Shown: one piece after another, positions 1,988 to 30,904 of the stretch
Layout of the letters: the number at the start of each line of letters is the position of its first letter
Numbering within the stretch: position 1 is the first letter of the stretch
From: a virus
IMG/VR virus record: IMGVR_UViG_3300042326_001926
Location: 1 to 37,981 of that record
Reading direction: 5' to 3' (one strand)
DNA length: 37,981 nt
Position numbers and translations under genes: made by a program
The notes under the pieces: generated by a model
What the model was told of the DNA's origin: nothing
Databases searched by the model: none
Seen by the model: only the letters and a program-made list of their open reading frames with translations

Positions 1988-3004
1988 ATGACAATTCAGC
2001 TAGATTATTCGGATGTTCTAATCGTACCCCGTCAGTCATCGGTCAACTCGCGCTCAGATGTCAATCTGATGCGAACGATTGGTCGCGTTTCTTGGACTGG
2101 AGTTCCAATCGTGGCTGCAAACATGGCGACGATTGGTACGCTGGAGATGGCAGAAGCCCTCGGTAAGTATCAGTGGCTGACATGCCTGCACAAGCATTAT
2201 ACCGCAGAAGAAATTTTGTCCCTATCGTATCACGGGCAATATTTCTCTGCTCCAACTATCGGACTTGATACGACTAGCCAGCAGACATTCCGGCAAGTCA
2301 TGAAGTCTGAGAACAAGTTCAAGTTTGTTTGTATCGATGTTGCGAATGGTTACATCGATAATTTCAGTGAGTTAGTGTACAATATTCGCCAAGAGTATGG
2401 CGAAAGAGTAAATATCATTGCAGGGAATGTAGTAACACCAGAAGGAGTAAATCTACTATGCAAAGCAGGCGCGGACTTTATCAAGGTTGGAATCGGACCC
2501 GGAAGTGCTTGCACAACACGCAAGATGACCGGAGTAGGGTTTCCACAGTTCTCGGCAGTCCAGAACTGTGCAAAAGAAGCACAGAACAATCCAAGTCGAT
2601 TGGGAATAGTCGCGGATGGTGGGTGCGTACATCCCGGTGATGTCGCCAAGGCATTCGCTGCTGGCGCACAGATGGTAATGATCGGTGGTATGCTAGCAGG
2701 CCACGACGAATGCGGCGGGTGGGAGTTTGATTATAATACAAATACTATGGTTCCAACCTTCTACGGAATGGCATCGGAACATGCAATGAAGACGCATTAT
2801 AATCAACGAAACTCCTATCGTGCCGCAGAAGGAAAGCGAGTAATCGTTGAAGCTAAGGGACCAGTGGAGAATACTGTCACGGAAGTCATGGGCGGTATTC
2901 GTTCTGCGTGTACCTATGTTGGAGCAAAAAATCTTGATGAACTTTCTAAGAATGCCCGATTCATTCAGGTCAATCATCAGTACAATACCGTCTTCGGACA
3001 CTAA
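1988..3004 (+). CDS. guaC: GMP reductase
   Basis: The enzyme converts GMP to IMP and ammonia using NADPH, feeding guanine nucleotides back to the purine branch point. The 338-residue protein matches bacterial GuaC (about 347 residues) along its whole length: an N-terminal YSDVLIVPR motif, SGVP/AANM-type barrel strands, FVCIDVANGY near 113-122, and the active-site loop GIGPGSACTTRKMTG with catalytic Cys175. The loops DGGC and GGMLAGH and the C-terminal RGPVENT-like and GGIRSACTYVGA segments follow. The Thr-Arg-Lys-Met-Thr-Gly context after the Cys, and the absence of CBS domains, favour GMP reductase over IMP dehydrogenase. It is the first gene of a less AT-rich cassette and has no Shine-Dalgarno sequence. 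Confidence 0.93.
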   Translation: MTIQLDYSDVLIVPRQSSVNSRSDVNLMRTIGRVSWTGVPIVAANMATIGTLEMAEALGKYQWLTCLHKHYTAEEILSLSYHGQYFSAPTIGLDTTSQQTFRQVMKSENKFKFVCIDVANGYIDNFSELVYNIRQEYGERVNIIAGNVVTPEGVNLLCKAGADFIKVGIGPGSACTTRKMTGVGFPQFSAVQNCAKEAQNNPSRLGIVADGGCVHPGDVAKAFAAGAQMVMIGGMLAGHDECGGWEFDYNTNTMVPTFYGMASEHAMKTHYNQRNSYRAAEGKRVIVEAKGPVENTVTEVMGGIRSACTYVGAKNLDELSKNARFIQVNHQYNTVFGH

Positions 3005-3006
3005 CT

Positions 3007-3534
3007 ATGAATATCTTTGCTCTTCACTCAGATCCGCTCATGGCCGCTAGTTACATGTGCGATAAGCATGTCGTTAAGATGATCCTTGAAAGCGCACAAA
3101 TGCTTTCTACGGTTCATCATGTCAGCGAAAGCTCTATCAATAAGGAAACTTTGTACAAGAAGTGTTTCGTGAATCATCCCTGTACGCTATGGGCTGCATA
3201 TAGCAAGGATAACTATATCTGGCTCACGGATCATGCCATTGCACTTTCGCACATCTACGCTAGGCGTTATAACAAGTGCCACAAGTCCTTTCCTCTTTTG
3301 TACTCCATGAGCGTACAAATTCCTGAACTACCCAAGCGCGGTCTGACTCATTTTGCTCAGGCTATGCCAGATAAATACAAGGTTCACGGAGATCCCGTAC
3401 TTGCTTATCGTAAGTACTATGTGGGAGAAAAAAGTAAGTTTGCAAAATGGACTTGCAATCCTGAACCTGAGTGGTATACTGTAATGTTAAAGGAGAATGA
3501 AAATGAGCAATGTACAAATCTTGCGTTTAACTAG
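3007..3534 (+). CDS. Conserved phage protein with N-terminal CDKHVVK motif, function unknown
   Basis: This 175-residue protein begins 2 nt after the guaC stop. I recall related proteins in large tailed phages with the same opening pattern: Met-Asn-Ile-Phe, then DP, a Tyr/Cys-rich helix, CDKHVVKMILESAQML, then NHPC-x-LW. The C-terminal half has QAMPDKYK and a WT/W-rich end. No function is established for that family as far as I know. The conserved Cys, His and Asp residues could be a catalytic or metal site, but this is inference. Its 3' end overlaps the next gene by about 30 nt. Confidence 0.8.
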   Translation: MNIFALHSDPLMAASYMCDKHVVKMILESAQMLSTVHHVSESSINKETLYKKCFVNHPCTLWAAYSKDNYIWLTDHAIALSHIYARRYNKCHKSFPLLYSMSVQIPELPKRGLTHFAQAMPDKYKVHGDPVLAYRKYYVGEKSKFAKWTCNPEPEWYTVMLKENENEQCTNLAFN

Positions 3535-3829: not shown

Positions 3830-3904
3830 ATTCCCGTAGCTCAGTTGGATTAGAGCAAGTGCCTTCTAAGCACTAGGTCGTAGGTTCGAATCCTATCGGG
3901 AATG
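3830..3904 (+). tRNA. tRNA-Arg (anticodon UCU)
   Basis: The cloverleaf is complete: acceptor ATTCCCG with CGGGAAT (7 bp), D stem GCTC/GAGC, anticodon stem AGTGC/GCACT with loop CTTCTAA (anticodon TCT), T arm GTAGG-TTCGAAT-CCTAT, discriminator G. CCA is not encoded. It reads AGA and AGG; AGA is visibly the main Arg codon in the AT-rich late genes. Confidence 0.95.
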
Positions 3905-3905
3905 C

Positions 3906-3976
3906 TGAAGATTGGTGTAACGGTAGCACAACTGACTCTGACTCAGTTTGTCCTAGTTCGAATCTAGGATCTTCAA
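3906..3976 (+). tRNA. tRNA-Gln (anticodon CUG)
   Basis: Acceptor TGAAGAT pairs with ATCTTCA (7 bp). The D arm is GTG/CAC; the anticodon stem is ACTGA/TCAGT with loop CTCTGAC (anticodon CTG); the T arm is CCTAG-TTCGAAT-CTAGG; the discriminator is A. CCA is not encoded. It is one base from the preceding tRNA. A CUG anticodon reads CAG, not the CAA that an AT-rich genome would favour, and is less expected in a phage than UUG. Confidence 0.9.
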
Positions 3977-3977
3977 T

Positions 3978-4049
3978 GAGGATGTAACTCAATGGCAGAG
4001 TGTGACCCTTCCAAGGTCAATGTTGCGGGTTCAAGTCCCGTCGTCCTCT
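3978..4049 (+). tRNA. tRNA-Gly (anticodon UCC)
   Basis: Acceptor GAGGATG pairs with CGTCCTC (7 bp with one G-T). The D arm is ACTC/GAGT, the anticodon stem TGACC/GGTCA with loop CTTCCAA (anticodon TCC), the T arm GCGGG-TTCAAGT-CCCGT, the discriminator T. CCA is not encoded. It reads GGA and GGG, and GGA is common in the late genes. Confidence 0.93.
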
Positions 4050-4052
4050 TTT

Positions 4053-4373
4053 ATGTCAACTCTTGATGAAGAAATCTACGCGCTACAACGCTGTAAAGAA
4101 TTTATTTACAGTCTTTTAGACCCAAAACAAACACCCAAAGTCCCGAAAGAAATTCGGCAAAGGGCAAGAAATGTTGTCAAACACTATCCAATAGTGGTTG
4201 ACTTCTTCGTTGAGAGATACTATAATGAGAAGATAGTCGGGTCAAAGGCGACTAATTATGATTACTCCGAAATTGAGCGTGAAATTAAACGACATTTTAG
4301 CGCAAACGATGCCGATTTGCCTCCAGATGGAGAGGCAAAAGAAGCATGTGAGTCTGATCTTCCACAAGAATAA
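4053..4373 (+). CDS. Small conserved phage protein, unknown function
   Basis: The 106-residue protein starts at ATG 4053, just after tRNA-Gly; an upstream in-frame ATG at 4002 lies inside the tRNA and is rejected. The sequence ALQRCKEFIYSLLDP, then TPKVPKEIRQRARNVVKHYP, is a short helical pattern (ERAL-x-REFL...LP-x-x-IR-x-x-A...LKHYP) that I recall in small bacterial and phage proteins of unknown function. The C terminus is acidic. There is no Shine-Dalgarno sequence between the tRNA and the start. The end overlaps the next gene. Confidence 0.65.
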   Translation: MSTLDEEIYALQRCKEFIYSLLDPKQTPKVPKEIRQRARNVVKHYPIVVDFFVERYYNEKIVGSKATNYDYSEIEREIKRHFSANDADLPPDGEAKEACESDLPQE

Positions 4374-4653
4374 ACTTGTTTCAATTGGAACTAACCAATT
4401 CAAAACACATCCACTTGCTCGTAAGTATGGATATGTAATTGACTGCGTTCATTCTGAGCTAGATGCGTTCAATAAGCTGCCAAAATGCTATAAAAGAGGC
4501 GAAAAGAGGTTGAAATTGATCAATTTTCGCATGAATCGGTTTAACGAACTGCGAAATTCTAAGCCTTGTAAGCATTGTTTGGCGTGGTGTGTTGACTTCT
4601 TTGACGAAATTTGGTACACTGACAACGAAGGTTTTCAAGAATTGGAGATTTAA
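4327..4653 (+). CDS. Cytidine/dCMP deaminase-like zinc protein
   Basis: The protein is 108 residues if it starts at ATG 4327. The cytidine deaminase-like metal motifs are present: VHSELDAF (His42, catalytic Glu44) and SKPCKHC (Pro80, Cys81, Cys84). The N-terminal strand pair, LIFHKNKLVSIGTNQFKTHP, matches the opening of phage nucleotide deaminase-like proteins. The HxE-PCxxC spacing is short, so the protein is compact. The substrate (dCMP, another base, or a nucleic acid) is unknown. The start is uncertain: GTG 4348 or the longer frame from 4258 are alternatives, and the gene overlaps the previous one in another frame. It sits in a nucleotide-metabolism and tRNA cassette, which fits such a role. 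Confidence 0.65.
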   Translation: MERQKKHVSLIFHKNKLVSIGTNQFKTHPLARKYGYVIDCVHSELDAFNKLPKCYKRGEKRLKLINFRMNRFNELRNSKPCKHCLAWCVDFFDEIWYTDNEGFQELEI

Positions 4654-4845
4654 ATGTATAAGCACGGAGAAAAAGTAGTAAATTCGGAAAATAGCCGTCC
4701 TTGCACTATTGTTGGTTCTCAAACCTCACGGGCAAAGGACAAGAAGGGTGTTCTTTACGAAGAAACTGAGTATTGCGTTCGGTATGAAGATGGTTCTACC
4801 GATTGGATCTCGGCAGAAAGCACAAAGAAGTTCCTAATCGACTAA
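4654..4845 (+). CDS. Small hypothetical protein, 63 aa
   Basis: The gene begins directly after the deaminase-like stop, with TTGGAGA as a ribosome binding site 5-11 nt upstream. The 63 residues look like a small beta barrel: KHGEKVVNSENSRPCTIVG, then EYCVRYEDGSTDWISAE. This is a pattern shared with SH3/KOW- or Tudor-like modules, but I cannot assign a family. The stop overlaps the next start as TAATG. Confidence 0.6.
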   Translation: MYKHGEKVVNSENSRPCTIVGSQTSRAKDKKGVLYEETEYCVRYEDGSTDWISAESTKKFLID

Positions 4846-5111
4846 TGGCATACCGAATCCACATTGACATTCCTCTCATGTCCTCCTGCCAAGAGGAGGC
4901 TGTGGTGGCTGCTAAGGCCATCATGGAGCGTCTAGCCTCCCCAGAGGCCCTAGAGTGCGTAAAGGCCCATAGCGGCACACAGGTCAACTATCGCCTTGGT
5001 GACGATACTGACCGCCAGAAGAGCAATTATTTGGTTTTGACTCCTTCTGGGCATGTTACTAACCAAAAATGCAGAATTCTCTTGACAGAGGAGCCATCAT
5101 CTGTAGAATGA
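4845..5111 (+). CDS. Small hypothetical protein, 88 aa
   Basis: The start is ATG 4845, which overlaps the preceding TAA by one base (TAATG) and implies coupling; an ATG at 4803 in the same frame lies inside the upstream gene. The 88 residues begin MAYRIHIDIPLMSSCQEEAV, with an Ala-rich helix following. It is less AT-rich than the late genes, using GCC, CTA and GTG codons. No family recognised. Confidence 0.6.
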   Translation: MAYRIHIDIPLMSSCQEEAVVAAKAIMERLASPEALECVKAHSGTQVNYRLGDDTDRQKSNYLVLTPSGHVTNQKCRILLTEEPSSVE

Positions 5112-5121
5112 TGGTGTAGCA

Positions 5122-5195
5122 GGGAACGACAAAGAGCAAATCGTTCCGCCCTAACGGGAAAGCGAGAACTAACTCGCCAGCACATAAGGTGCTGA
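5122..5195 (+). ncRNA. Candidate structured RNA with four consecutive hairpins
   Basis: Between the 88-aa gene and tRNA-Ile, about 75 nt fold into adjacent hairpins: GGAACGA/TCGTTCC (5123-5129 with 5141-5147, 11-nt loop), CCC/GGG around TAAC (5149-5158), GCGAG/CTCGC (5162-5166 with 5173-5177) and CAGCAC/GTGCTG (5178-5183 with 5189-5194, loop ATAAG). The last two are directly stacked. An alternative pairing of TTCCG (5144-5148) with CGGGAA (5155-5160) would compete with the first hairpin. There is no U run, so this is not simply a terminator. It could be a small RNA, a self-cleaving or processing element for the downstream tRNA, or a mobile RNA fragment. I do not recognise the family. Confidence 0.4.
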
Positions 5196-5199
5196 TATT

Positions 5200-5272
5200 G
5201 GGTAGGTAGTTCAATCGGCAGAACCTTCCGCTTATAACGGTAGATGTGTGGGTTCGACCCCCACCCTACTCA
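5200..5272 (+). tRNA. tRNA-Ile (anticodon UAU)
   Basis: Acceptor GGGTAGG pairs with CCTACTC (7 bp with one G-T). The D arm is GTTC/GAAC; the anticodon stem is TTCCG/CGGTA with one T-T mismatch and loop CTTATAA (anticodon TAT); the T arm is GTGGG-TTCGACC-CCCAC; the discriminator is A. CCA is not encoded. Most bacteria read AUA with a lysidine-modified CAU tRNA, so a genuine UAU tRNA is a notable addition for a phage rich in ATA codons. Confidence 0.9.
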
Positions 5273-5286
5273 TTGGAGATATAAGT

Positions 5287-10641: not shown

Positions 10642-11319
10642 TCACAAGACCCTCCATATTGGAGGGTCTTTTGTTGAATTTAAAAAAGATGCTAGATCAC
10701 CTTTTTCGTCACTTAAACCAATTCCTTCATTATTCTTTATAGACCTAGCTGATGTAATATTTTTTCTTATTTCTGCTTCTGATGATCTAGAATCAGTTGC
10801 TTTTTCTTGCTCAAGATCTTTTATTCTTTTTTCTAAAGCAATTTTTTCTATATCCGTAAGTTTTTCAGATTTTTTTTGTACCAGTTTTAGTAGTGATAAT
10901 TCACTATTATCTAAAACCATTTCCTGAACAGCTTTATCATTTGCAGCTGGTTCTGGCATTTGATTATTAGGAGCATTTTCCAAGCTGTCTATCGGAAAAT
11001 TGTTGCTACTAGAAGAACCTTTTAAACTTTCATTTTTTGAATTTTGTTCTCCTACTTTTGCCTGATCTAAACTAGGAGTTTCAGAAATATTAGTTTCATT
11101 GGTAGATTTTGAGGATTGTTCATTAGATTCTGGAATTATATTATCTGAAACAATATTATTAGGATCTACTTGTAATGAACTAGTAGTTTCAGTTTCATCA
11201 GATATGACACTAGAATAATTTGAAACATCCATAGTTGGATTTCCAGATTCTATCATCTCCGCATTTGCTTGATTTTGTGATACGGAGTTATTAGTTTCAA
11301 ATATTTCTTTTTCAATCAT
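10642..11319 (-). CDS. Acidic, disordered hypothetical protein (225 aa)
   Basis: No family recognised. The first 130 residues are Ser/Asn/Glu/Thr-rich and probably unstructured. A charged helix follows (LTDIEKIALEKRIKDLEQEK), and the last residues are DPPIWRVL. The start overlaps the -1-frame extension of the gp26-like gene by 8 nt, so the gene is coupled to tail assembly genes and may be a hub assembly or tape-measure-associated factor; that is inference from position. The final codons are read through the hairpin of the convergent gp32 terminator. Confidence 0.65.
   Translation of the reverse strand: MIEKEIFETNNSVSQNQANAEMIESGNPTMDVSNYSSVISDETETTSSLQVDPNNIVSDNIIPESNEQSSKSTNETNISETPSLDQAKVGEQNSKNESLKGSSSSNNFPIDSLENAPNNQMPEPAANDKAVQEMVLDNSELSLLKLVQKKSEKLTDIEKIALEKRIKDLEQEKATDSRSSEAEIRKNITSARSIKNNEGIGLSDEKGDLASFLNSTKDPPIWRVL
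10646..10674 (+). terminator. Intrinsic terminator after gp32
   Basis: AAGACCCTCC (10646-10655) pairs perfectly with GGAGGGTCTT (10661-10670) around ATATT, followed by TTTTG on the plus strand. The reverse strand lacks a U run after the hairpin, so it should act mainly on gp32 transcription. Confidence 0.85.
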
Positions 11320-11485
11320 ATTCGTTTCTCTTCTCTTCTAATTTATTTTTATATTGATTAAAATATACATCTCTTTCCCAAGGAAACATATTTTCAATAT
11401 CTCCTATCGTTGATATATTATTTGATGATAAGAAAAAATTTATTTTATAATATAAAACTAAATCAATATGATTTAAGTTAATGTA
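11312..11485 (-). CDS. -1 frameshift extension of the gp26-like protein (tail assembly chaperone-type C terminus)
   Basis: After the slippery run, the -1 frame stays open for 57 codons (TAC at 11485-11483 to TGA 11314-11312). It contains helices LDLVLYYKINFFL-like, then IGDIENMFPWERDVYFNQYK and a Glu/Lys-rich end. The acidic-Met-x-Pro-(W/F)ER-(D/E)-x-Y pattern followed by a charged helix resembles, from memory, the C-terminal part of tail assembly chaperones made by frameshifting (lambda GT type). There is no good start for the whole segment; ATG 11387 with AGGAGA upstream could make only the last 25 residues. The fused product would be about 282 residues. Confidence 0.6.
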   Translation of the reverse strand, partial: YINLNHIDLVLYYKINFFLSSNNISTIGDIENMFPWERDVYFNQYKNKLEEKRNEYD

Positions 11486-12159
11486 AAAAAATTTAATACT
11501 CCATCCAATCTGAGTGTTCGTTCTACTCCATCCGATGTTTGATATTTCACATCTGAATGTATTTTTGGAAGCGATAATATAAAATCTTTTATTTGATTAT
11601 ACTCTTTTTTAGTTAAAGAATTTAAAATTTCATCTATATCAGAAGAACCTAAATCTTCAAAATTATAAACAGAATCTTCTTTTGATACTTTTTCTATTGA
11701 AGTTTTAATCAAATGATTAACATCAAAAGTTCCATCCATCGATATAATTTTATGAATAGTTGGTTGTTTAAATACTATAAAATAGTTTTCTGATAATTTT
11801 AATTCAAACTCTTTTTTTCCATTTCCAACTACTAGTTCAGTAAGATTAATTGTAGTTTTTATTTTTTCATTTGTAATTGGGCATGTGAAGTTAGTTTTTA
11901 CTATTTCCCCAACAGACTTAGCTCTTAAATTACAAAACAAATATTCAAGATCTTGTAATGTTATTGATTCTATTGAAATATCATCAAAGCATTTATCAAT
12001 AAGTTCAAGAACATTTTTTATAATTAAAGATGGATTTTTTTCTTCTTTAATTAGGAGTAAAGTCTTTTCGTCTGATACTAAAAATGGTCTAAAGTATATT
12101 TTTTTATTTGTGCTAGGAAGAATTAGTTCATATTTTGGATAGGATCTTTCAAATTTCAT
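11473..12159 (-). CDS. 26: gp26-like baseplate hub protein / tail assembly chaperone
   Basis: The 228-residue protein (T4 gp26 about 208) belongs by pattern to the T4 baseplate-hub gp26/gp51 family. An N-terminal strand region, LPSTNKKIYFRPFLVSDEK, is followed by helices and the conserved segment LEYLFCNLRAKSVGEIV. A short Cys-containing region (FTCPITNEK) and helix KDFILSLPKIHSDVKY come next. In T4 these proteins act in hub assembly rather than as abundant virion parts. The start overlaps the previous gene's stop. The 3' end carries a slippery heptamer that opens a -1-frame extension, so two products are likely. Confidence 0.7.
   Translation of the reverse strand: MKFERSYPKYELILPSTNKKIYFRPFLVSDEKTLLLIKEEKNPSLIIKNVLELIDKCFDDISIESITLQDLEYLFCNLRAKSVGEIVKTNFTCPITNEKIKTTINLTELVVGNGKKEFELKLSENYFIVFKQPTIHKIISMDGTFDVNHLIKTSIEKVSKEDSVYNFEDLGSSDIDEILNSLTKKEYNQIKDFILSLPKIHSDVKYQTSDGVERTLRLDGVLNFFTLT
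11485..11491 (-). promoter_or_regulatory. Slippery heptamer U-UUU-UUU for -1 frameshifting
   Basis: Seven T residues on the reverse strand (11491 to 11485) are read in the zero frame as AAT-TTT-TTT-ACA, which is a canonical X-XXY-YYZ heptamer. The zero-frame stop comes only three codons later, and the -1 frame is open for 57 codons. I see no obvious stable hairpin directly downstream; the AU-rich sequence could form only weak structure. Confidence 0.55.
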
Positions 12160-28442: not shown

Positions 28443-29621
28443 ATGCCACAAATTAACATTACAGAAAATTCACCAAATTTATCAGGCGCAGTACAATCAC
28501 AGGGATCTTCCCATGTTTCTGTTTTTATGTGTGGTGCTTCTTTCATGCAAAAATTGACTGAAGGGGATTCTCCAGTACCAGCATATAAACAATATAACTC
28601 TCCACAAGAACTAATTGCCGAATTTGATTCTGCGGTTCTTGCAGGAACTTCAAGCGGATTTTCTTCCAGTCCTATTGAAAAAGGATTTACTGGTGGTTCT
28701 ACACTTGATAGAGAACTGCATTCAGCTTTAAATTATCTTGAATATGGTGGAATTTTAATTGCAGCAACTGGTGCTACCTCACTTGCTGCATCAAATATTA
28801 AGATTGATTCTAGTTTCTATGAGAGAAAAGATAAATTTAACGAAGTAGTTAATTTAGTAAATCTATTTGAAGATGTCATTGGAATTGTTGGATCTTCATT
28901 TGAATTTCATAATGGAACTACTGGATTATATCCAATAGATTTTTCAAGTTCTGGATTTTTTGGCCTTACTGCTATTACTGGCGTAAGCGGATCTACCTTC
29001 GACAATAATATTTTCTCTGTAATTGGTAGAAAAGAAAGAGCAAGACTTTATGGTGGAGAAACCGCAAATATTCCAATTTTGATGGTATCTGACGCTGCTG
29101 GTTGCCTTGCTAGAACTGATAGCAGTTTCTTCCCTTGGTATGCTCCAGCAGGAACTATTAGAGGCGAAGTCAATACCATTACCAAGCTTTATCCATCAAT
29201 AGACGATACTGATATTACAAATTTACAAGGTCAGTTTGTAAATGCATTTAATAATGTTCTTGGTATCGATGGAATTTATCTACTAGGTGATAAAACATGT
29301 GAACTTACTGTTGCAAATAAACAACAAATAGGTATTACTAGACTTATAAACTATGTCAATAGACAAATAAAGCCAATCGTAGCAGAAGCATTATTTGAAT
29401 TAAATGATGCTGAAACAAGATCAAAGATTACTGCTGCTCTAACTTCTATTATGGAATTTATCAAGTCTGGTAGAGGCGTTTCAAGCTATGTAATAGTTTG
29501 CGACGATACAAATAATCCTGTTTCTGTGCAAGAAGCTAGGCAGATTGTAGTCGATCTATCGTTCAAGCCAGTATTCTCAATAAATCAAGTTTCGTTCAGA
29601 TTTGTAATTAATCAATCTTAA
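28443..29621 (+). CDS. 18: Tail sheath protein gp18 (first paralogue)
   Basis: The 392-residue protein is the contractile sheath subunit. The core strand/helix ILMVSDAAGCLARTDSSFFP, then WYAPAGTIRGEV, is the 'D-x-AG-x-x-AR-x-D-x-x-x-x-PW-x-APAG-x-x-RG' sheath signature. The C-terminal domain runs RLINYVNRQIKPIVAEALFE, FELNDAETRSKI, then the insertion strand FSINQVSFRFVINQS, which links neighbouring subunits. T4 gp18 is 659 aa; the outer protruding domains are reduced here. An AGGA ribosome binding site precedes the ATG. A second sheath-like gene follows directly. Confidence 0.93.
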   Translation: MPQINITENSPNLSGAVQSQGSSHVSVFMCGASFMQKLTEGDSPVPAYKQYNSPQELIAEFDSAVLAGTSSGFSSSPIEKGFTGGSTLDRELHSALNYLEYGGILIAATGATSLAASNIKIDSSFYERKDKFNEVVNLVNLFEDVIGIVGSSFEFHNGTTGLYPIDFSSSGFFGLTAITGVSGSTFDNNIFSVIGRKERARLYGGETANIPILMVSDAAGCLARTDSSFFPWYAPAGTIRGEVNTITKLYPSIDDTDITNLQGQFVNAFNNVLGIDGIYLLGDKTCELTVANKQQIGITRLINYVNRQIKPIVAEALFELNDAETRSKITAALTSIMEFIKSGRGVSSYVIVCDDTNNPVSVQEARQIVVDLSFKPVFSINQVSFRFVINQS

Positions 29622-30904
29622 TGGATGATTTAACATTTAATTTTGAAGTAATAGAATCTAAAAAGGACATAGACATTGGAATATTGATCTATGATTCCAC
29701 ATATATTAATTTTCTAAAACTTCAAAATGAAAAATATTACAAAATAGATTCGCAAACAAAATTAACAGACTTAATTAAAAATGGAGATTATACTCAAATC
29801 TCCTCATCAATTACTACATTTGAAGATTTTATCGAATTAGTAACTTCTACCTCTGGACCATTACCACAGCTTTATCAGATAGCTAGAAAAGTAAATTTTT
29901 ATAATAATTTTTTAGTTGATTGTTCTCATTACAATTTTAATATAATTTTAGTCAATTGTTCTTCTAATGAAATACCATCAATAAAAACTGCTTTTAGTGA
30001 AAATAAAATAAAAGCATTTTCTTATGATCCTTTAAGATTGACAATAACAACAGAATTAAAAACATTTATAAAGGATAAAAAAACTCCAATTATTTTTAAT
30101 TGTTTAAATTCATCTAATAGATTGCTTGAAGATGGTTATATAACATCAAATCAGATAATAAATTCAATATCAATTAATAATTTAAATCTTAGAAACTTCA
30201 ATGATGAAGATTTTCAAATTTTAACATATTCAATAGCAGGACTAAAAAATAAATTTTGGTATTATAGATCTGACAATGTTATTAGTGATAAAAAATTAAT
30301 TCCAATACCGTTAATTTCTGATGCTATTGGTTGTTTTTCTAGAAGTTTAAATAGTATTCCTTGGCTACCACCAGCTGGTTATGTTCGTGGTAAAATACTC
30401 AATCAGGATTTTGAAGCTATTGAAAATCCTACAACTGCAACCTCTCCAAAAGAAGGAATCGTTCCTTCGACACCATCCAATCTAAATGATCTTGAATCAA
30501 TTTATGATAAAGGTATAAATTTACCAATTGAAATATTTGGTGCTGATAATATTAAATCTTTCTATATCAATAGCGATGTTTCTGGTTATACTGGAACAAT
30601 TTTTCCGCTAAAACAATCAATTTCTTATTCTAATTTAATTTTTGATGTGGTTAGCAATATTCAATATGTGTTAAATAGTTCATTATTTGACTTTAATGAC
30701 GAGGCAACTAGAAATTTAATAAAAATTAGAATAGAGCAATATCTTCAATTCACTAAGGCTAATTCAGGAATAGATGATTTTGTTGTAATTTGCGACTCTT
30801 CAAATAATAATGAAACTGACTATATCAATAGAAGAGTAAATGTAGATGTGTCAATAAAGCCATCACAAAGTATAAATTTTGTTGAATTGAGCTTTACTAC
30901 ATAA
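29621..30904 (+). CDS. Second, divergent tail sheath-like protein
   Basis: This 427-residue protein is a paralogue of the preceding sheath: PLISDAIGCFSRSLNSIPWL, then PPAGYVRGKI, matches the same core. The C terminus SSLFDFNDEATRNLIKIRIE and DDFVVICDSSNNN, then SIKPSQSINFVELSFTT, follows the same plan as gp18 here (FELNDAETRSKI, SYVIVCDDTNN, FSINQVSFRF). The N-terminal 200 residues differ strongly and are Asn/Ile/Lys-rich. It starts on the gp18 stop (TAATG), so the two are coupled. It could mix with gp18 in the sheath, form a special ring (baseplate- or neck-proximal), or be a minor variant. Confidence 0.8.
   Translation: MDDLTFNFEVIESKKDIDIGILIYDSTYINFLKLQNEKYYKIDSQTKLTDLIKNGDYTQISSSITTFEDFIELVTSTSGPLPQLYQIARKVNFYNNFLVDCSHYNFNIILVNCSSNEIPSIKTAFSENKIKAFSYDPLRLTITTELKTFIKDKKTPIIFNCLNSSNRLLEDGYITSNQIINSISINNLNLRNFNDEDFQILTYSIAGLKNKFWYYRSDNVISDKKLIPIPLISDAIGCFSRSLNSIPWLPPAGYVRGKILNQDFEAIENPTTATSPKEGIVPSTPSNLNDLESIYDKGINLPIEIFGADNIKSFYINSDVSGYTGTIFPLKQSISYSNLIFDVVSNIQYVLNSSLFDFNDEATRNLIKIRIEQYLQFTKANSGIDDFVVICDSSNNNETDYINRRVNVDVSIKPSQSINFVELSFTT

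Follow-up and report, generated by a model that had tools for sequence, protein, structure and literature searches.

A candidate programmed -1 ribosomal frameshift joining gp26-like and gp51-like sequences in a tail assembly gene of a marine phage

Among the closest described counterparts of the gene considered here, a gp26-like gene on the reverse strand of a 37,981-nucleotide stretch of viral DNA (IMG/VR record IMGVR_UViG_3300042326_001926, positions 1 to 37,981; hereafter the window, meaning the whole stretch), are the tail assembly chaperone (TAC) genes of lambda (gpG/gpGT) and P2 (E/E'), which likewise lie among tail genes (PMC5009743). According to the same review, the G-T frameshift is conserved save in T4 (PMC5009743). 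From the sequence we conclude, with near certainty, that this marine bacterial virus uses one gene to make two forms of a tail-building helper protein, its ribosomes at times slipping back by one base on a run of T's, and we put the probability that gp26-gp51 represents a programmed -1 ribosomal frameshift of the lambda G/GT type at about 95%.

A 2022 study in Virology by Vladimirov, Gautam and Davidson, to go by its title, is said to have identified the chaperone genes of T4-like phages together with a mechanism other than frameshifting. The portion of PMC10885494 that draws on that study describes some T4-like phages with a short gene and a longer fusion gene, and the corresponding portion of PMC12846349 attributes to it poly-T slippery sequences in T4-like TAC-N genes. 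Frameshifting of this kind is widespread and conserved among T4-like phages and has probably been described for them already, and because these portions credit the study with both the T4-like chaperones and the poly-T sites, we regard the window as a further case of a known phenomenon. In the literature searched, to which the full text of that study did not belong, there is no mention of two features described below, namely a Shine-Dalgarno (SD)-like element upstream of the slip site and a related clade with a run of ten T's (T10). In Vandenendeviridae and Andersonviridae, a different phage group, the chaperone gene also carries a conserved -1 slip on a T-rich motif (GTTTTT), and the tail is annotated separately or not at all (PMC12846349). 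Outside phages, Escherichia coli dnaX likewise combines a slippery heptamer with a 5' SD stimulator (PMC5009743), but its heptamer is A_AAA_AAG rather than U_UUU_UUN, its two products are made at about 1:1, in contrast to the minor share expected of the long product in the window, and the present locus has no consensus stem-loop.

The features of the locus, in window positions, are the following.
11473..12159, reverse strand: gp26-like open reading frame (ORF) of 228 amino acids (aa), predicted short 0-frame product (TAC-N, lambda gpG-like); PF12322 T4_baseplate, E=2.9e-49; PHROG_150 baseplate hub, E=2e-52
11498..11505, reverse strand: SD-like GAUGGAGU 5' of the slip site, with pairing to the anti-SD sequence predicted at -5.9 kcal/mol
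11485..11491, reverse strand: slippery heptamer T_TTT_TTT, in register across homologues
11473..11475, reverse strand: 0-frame stop TAA, three sense codons past the heptamer, read from the sequence
11312..11485, reverse strand: gp51 tail in the -1 frame (57 codons, then TGA), matching PHROG_634 (baseplate hub assembly catalyst) at E=1.7e-14
11312..12159, reverse strand: predicted 282-aa gp26-gp51 frameshift fusion (TAC-NC, lambda gpGT-like), with a gain in PHROG_150 score
10642..11319, reverse strand: next ORF, 225 aa, whose start overlaps the gp51 end by 8 nucleotides (nt); kept in the lineage, no family match

The gp26-like ORF ends in GTA TTA AAT TTT TTT ACA TTA ACT TAA, where the heptamer stands in the 0-frame register (AA)T TTT TTT. 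From 11485 the -1 frame reads YINLNHIDLVLYYKINFFLSSNNISTIGDIENMFPWERDVYFNQYKNKLEEKRNEYD and runs through 57 codons to a TGA at 11314-11312; 5' of the slip site the same frame contains many stops. The first-pass annotation of this DNA had described a 228-codon gp26-like ORF with T_TTT_TTT at 11491-11485, three codons before its stop, a -1 frame open for 57 codons and a fusion of about 282 aa; the coordinates and counts agree with the sequence, and the recomputed length of the predicted fusion is 282 aa. The profile match to PHROG_634, "baseplate hub assembly catalyst", identifies the -1 segment as gp51, and because it matches this known gene the predicted product is a gp26-gp51 fusion. Against PHROG_150, gp26 scores 179 bits alone and 205 bits with the -1 tail added.

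A tblastn search with the fusion matched 847 phage records, mostly of cyanophages, whose annotation either lists separate gp26 and gp51 genes or lacks gp51. The slip site and the -1 tail are found in S-SSM5, S-H9-1, P-SSM2, Melnitz, HTVC008M and S-MbCM6, and also in Ochrobactrum phage OC, Acidovorax phage ACP17, Vibrio phage nt-1 and Cronobacter phage LPCS28. Our survey of homologues comprises 321 related loci, gathered mainly from IMG/VR, with a non-redundant subset of 94 loci less than 70% identical to each other; loci were selected by a run of at least 6 T, which biases the T-run counts. The gp51 sequence lies in the -1 frame in 304 of the 321 and in frame 0 in 14, and three are unplaced, two of them truncated and the third, that of Vibrio phage nt-1, having the -1 tail on inspection. 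With the exception of L277, which has a T9 run, the 304 loci carry T_TTT_TT(C/T/A) in register; the automatic rule missed the T run in only two (L144 and L284), both canonical on inspection.

The pattern of constraint at the site is that of tandem slippage. The first Phe codon is TTT in all 94 non-redundant loci (background among Phe codons 71%), and the codon before the Phe pair ends in T in 94/94 (background for the preceding residue classes 58%), while the second slip codon is free (TTC 62, TTT 29, TTA 3). The 0-frame stop follows the heptamer by 0-1 codon in 83/94, compared with three codons in the window's lineage. None of 91 non-redundant homologues has a -1-frame stop within the first 49 codons, while the other two frames average 6.0 and 4.8 stops. 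In the lineage of the window, most substitutions in the tail are at third codon positions when it is read in the -1 frame (e.g., 13/22 and 16/28). The third-position substitutions, the stop-free frame and the recurrence of the heptamer in register together imply that the open -1 frame is not due to chance. Conservation of the slippery run and of the -1 segment of PWER type had been proposed as a check; homologues retain both, and the earlier suggestion that this gp26 homologue uses a programmed -1 frameshift gains support from the frames, conservation and constraint. In Stenotrophomonas phage IME-SM1 (L029, ~2216-2240) the T run is shorter and, relative to an annotated 280-aa gp26, the gp51-like tail is in the +1 frame, a layout that may be a real variant or a sequencing error.

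Among the homologues, predicted pairing with the anti-SD sequence peaks just 5' of the slip site (mean -6.6 kcal/mol for 8-mers starting at -15, z=-12). A Glu codon in this region is GAG in 44 cases and GAA in 13, where the background share of GAG is 26% (p=1e-15), and the GAGG that it begins has its 3' end 10 nt before the heptamer. The excess of GAG therefore indicates selection on the RNA and not on the protein. The SD-like stimulator of E. coli dnaX stands at a similar place, ~10 nt upstream of the heptamer. These data point to an SD-like 5' stimulatory element in the homologues and, as GAUGGAGU, in the window.

Several observations weigh against programmed frameshifting in a lambda-type chaperone gene. 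The SD-like element of the window is nearer the heptamer than in most homologues, and one relative (L012) lacks the GGAG core of the element. RNAalifold gave no consensus downstream stem-loop for the homologues, and in the window the sequence 3' of the slip site does not stand out in its folding (z -1.2). Moreover, the AlphaFold model of the window's gp26, with a predicted local distance difference test (pLDDT) score of 90, has no significant match in a Foldseek comparison with the PDB, so that kinship of gp26 to solved tail assembly chaperones is not established structurally; a search of solved structures by sequence gave no significant match either. The local folding signal of the homologues peaks just 3' of the slip site, but it is weak (mean z about -1.3) and no common pairs underlie it. 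Pairing of the upstream GAGGG with a CCCTC farther downstream into a hairpin, noticed by eye, was rejected after counting pairs in 95 sequences, which gave zero covariation.

If RNA polymerase added or dropped a U on the T run, the long form could arise from altered messenger RNA rather than from ribosomal slippage. The seven T's of the window would suit such transcriptional slippage, as would the related clade with an invariant T10 tract, in which the gene is in frame and both other frames have stops, the layout of Thermus dnaX (PMC5009743). However, in most homologues the run stops at six T's, with a C next, and the strictly kept X_XXY_YYZ register, its last base free, is what tandem slippage of transfer RNAs (tRNAs) demands and slippage of polymerase does not. 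The SD-like element, too, makes sense for ribosomes only, and we consider transcriptional slippage at the window's site very unlikely.

The GenBank annotation of cyanophages treats gp51 as a separate gene with its own start or translational coupling, and many records (e.g., S-SSM5 and P-SSM2) give it such a start. An ATG does occur near the beginning of gp51 in 40 of 95 sequences; however, 31 of the 95, the window and 30 others, have no ATG, GTG or TTG there, and only six have a start with a convincing SD sequence, so that the strong independent start that would have told against frameshifting is rare. In the window none of these three codons is found within the first 15 codons of the gp51 tail. 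In addition, the T run, its register and the upstream element are conserved far past protein needs, and T4 gp51 has a gp26-like domain of its own. A separately translated gp51 is consequently most improbable, and the annotation of hundreds of deposited marine phage genomes would show two genes, or gp26 without gp51, for what are really two products of one gene. A sequencing or assembly error splitting one ORF, conceivable in that homopolymer runs are error-prone, is refuted because the identical frame change recurs at the identical place in hundreds of independent contigs and in isolate genomes.

Comparison with T4 supports the frameshift from another side. PF12322 matches T4 twice, in gene 26 (215 bits) and in gene 51 (178 bits). 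T4 gp26 aligns to a profile of 85 gp26 sequences up to Phe-Phe, three residues from its C-terminus, and has no match to the tail profile; the gp51 proteins of T4 and 44RR match both profiles. These matches indicate that T4 gp26 and gp51 are the short and the long product, separately encoded, and hence short and long chaperones like the two products predicted for the window. T4 differs from the window, whose single gene contains a slip site: its two genes are separate and divergent, and no frameshift occurs at this position. The parallel with lambda G/GT, which the first-pass annotation had drawn for this T4-type gp26 homologue, stands for the window, with the refinement that T4 itself uses two genes. 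Both gp26 and gp51 are listed as hub assembly chaperones of T4, and gp51 is required yet not in the virion (PMC3004832). In 2010 it was a puzzle that cyanophage gp51 is about one fifth the length of other gp51 proteins and lacks the first 200 residues of T4 gp51 (PMC3037559); the short gp51 would be explained if gp26 supplies the missing residues via the frameshift.

What follows, on slippage inside the host, on how efficient it is and on what the two chaperones do, is inferred. Most ribosomes would read gene 26 to its stop and yield the 228-aa short chaperone, while a minority, aided by the upstream SD-like stretch, would pause at U_UUU_UUU; there both tRNAs would slip back one base and reading would continue into gp51, giving the 282-aa fusion. 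The lambda gpG/gpGT and T4 gp26/gp51 pairs suggest, by analogy, a short form that coats the tape measure or hub protein and a long form that recruits tube or hub subunits, both departing before the virion is completed.

One clade among the relatives (L112-L118, L272-L276, L330, L331, L333, L334 and L336-L339), whose members are 45-75% identical to L118, reads from gp26 into gp51 without a change of frame, across an invariant T10 tract (AAT TTT TTT TTT). Exactly ten T's are present in 13 of the 14 in-frame survey loci, the tract lying about three codons 3' of the usual site; L119 is without T10. A scan of one sequence context that permitted 9-11 T's gave 14 gp26 loci, each of which has ten. The -1 frame meets an immediate stop (TGA or TAG) in 10 of 11 members examined, and the +1 frame a stop two codons on in all 11. 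A chance match to this double-stop pattern is expected at about 2-5% of gene positions, and the -1 stop is largely dictated by the next residue alone (Asp, Glu or Ser). The SD-like element is weak, absent or misplaced in the clade. Clade contigs of 146 kb and 154 kb, possibly incomplete, each show one PF12322 copy, and no second short gp26 gene was seen in them. The predicted model of the L118 long protein (pLDDT 91) has a helical tail and no significant match in the PDB. Bacterial genome contigs scanned for the clade yielded only two distant relatives.

A tentative reading, to which we give somewhat less than even odds, is that the T10 clade is reversed, slippage producing the short chaperone and normal decoding the long one. 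By analogy with Thermus dnaX, where slippage operates on an in-frame tract (PMC5009743), slippage in the clade would most likely be by RNA polymerase; the T10 genes may also be plain fused genes. At L277:1347-1355 a relative of the clade has a T9 run with gp51 in the -1 frame, the ordinary layout, and a change of one base would therefore swap the roles of the two products. The two genes of T4, the single gene with a slip site and the T10 layout form a natural series for studying how frameshifting, gene duplication and possible transcriptional slippage switch in setting the chaperone ratio.

The surroundings of the gene in the window may differ from those in lambda and P2, in that no recognisable tape measure gene directly follows it. 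In HTVC008M a short ORF and then a putative tape measure come after the gene, whereas the window has the 225-aa ORF without family match (10642-11319, reverse strand), which occupies the place of the tape measure in other T4-like phages and has the C-terminal sequence PPIWRVL. On the forward strand, neighbouring genes at 28443-29621 and 29621-30904 each match tail sheath families. Also on the forward strand are an IMP dehydrogenase/GMP reductase-like gene (1988-3004), a pyrimidine dimer glycosylase-like gene (3007-3534) and, at 3830-5273, four tRNA genes (Arg-TCT, Gln-CTG, Gly-TCC and Ile-TAT).
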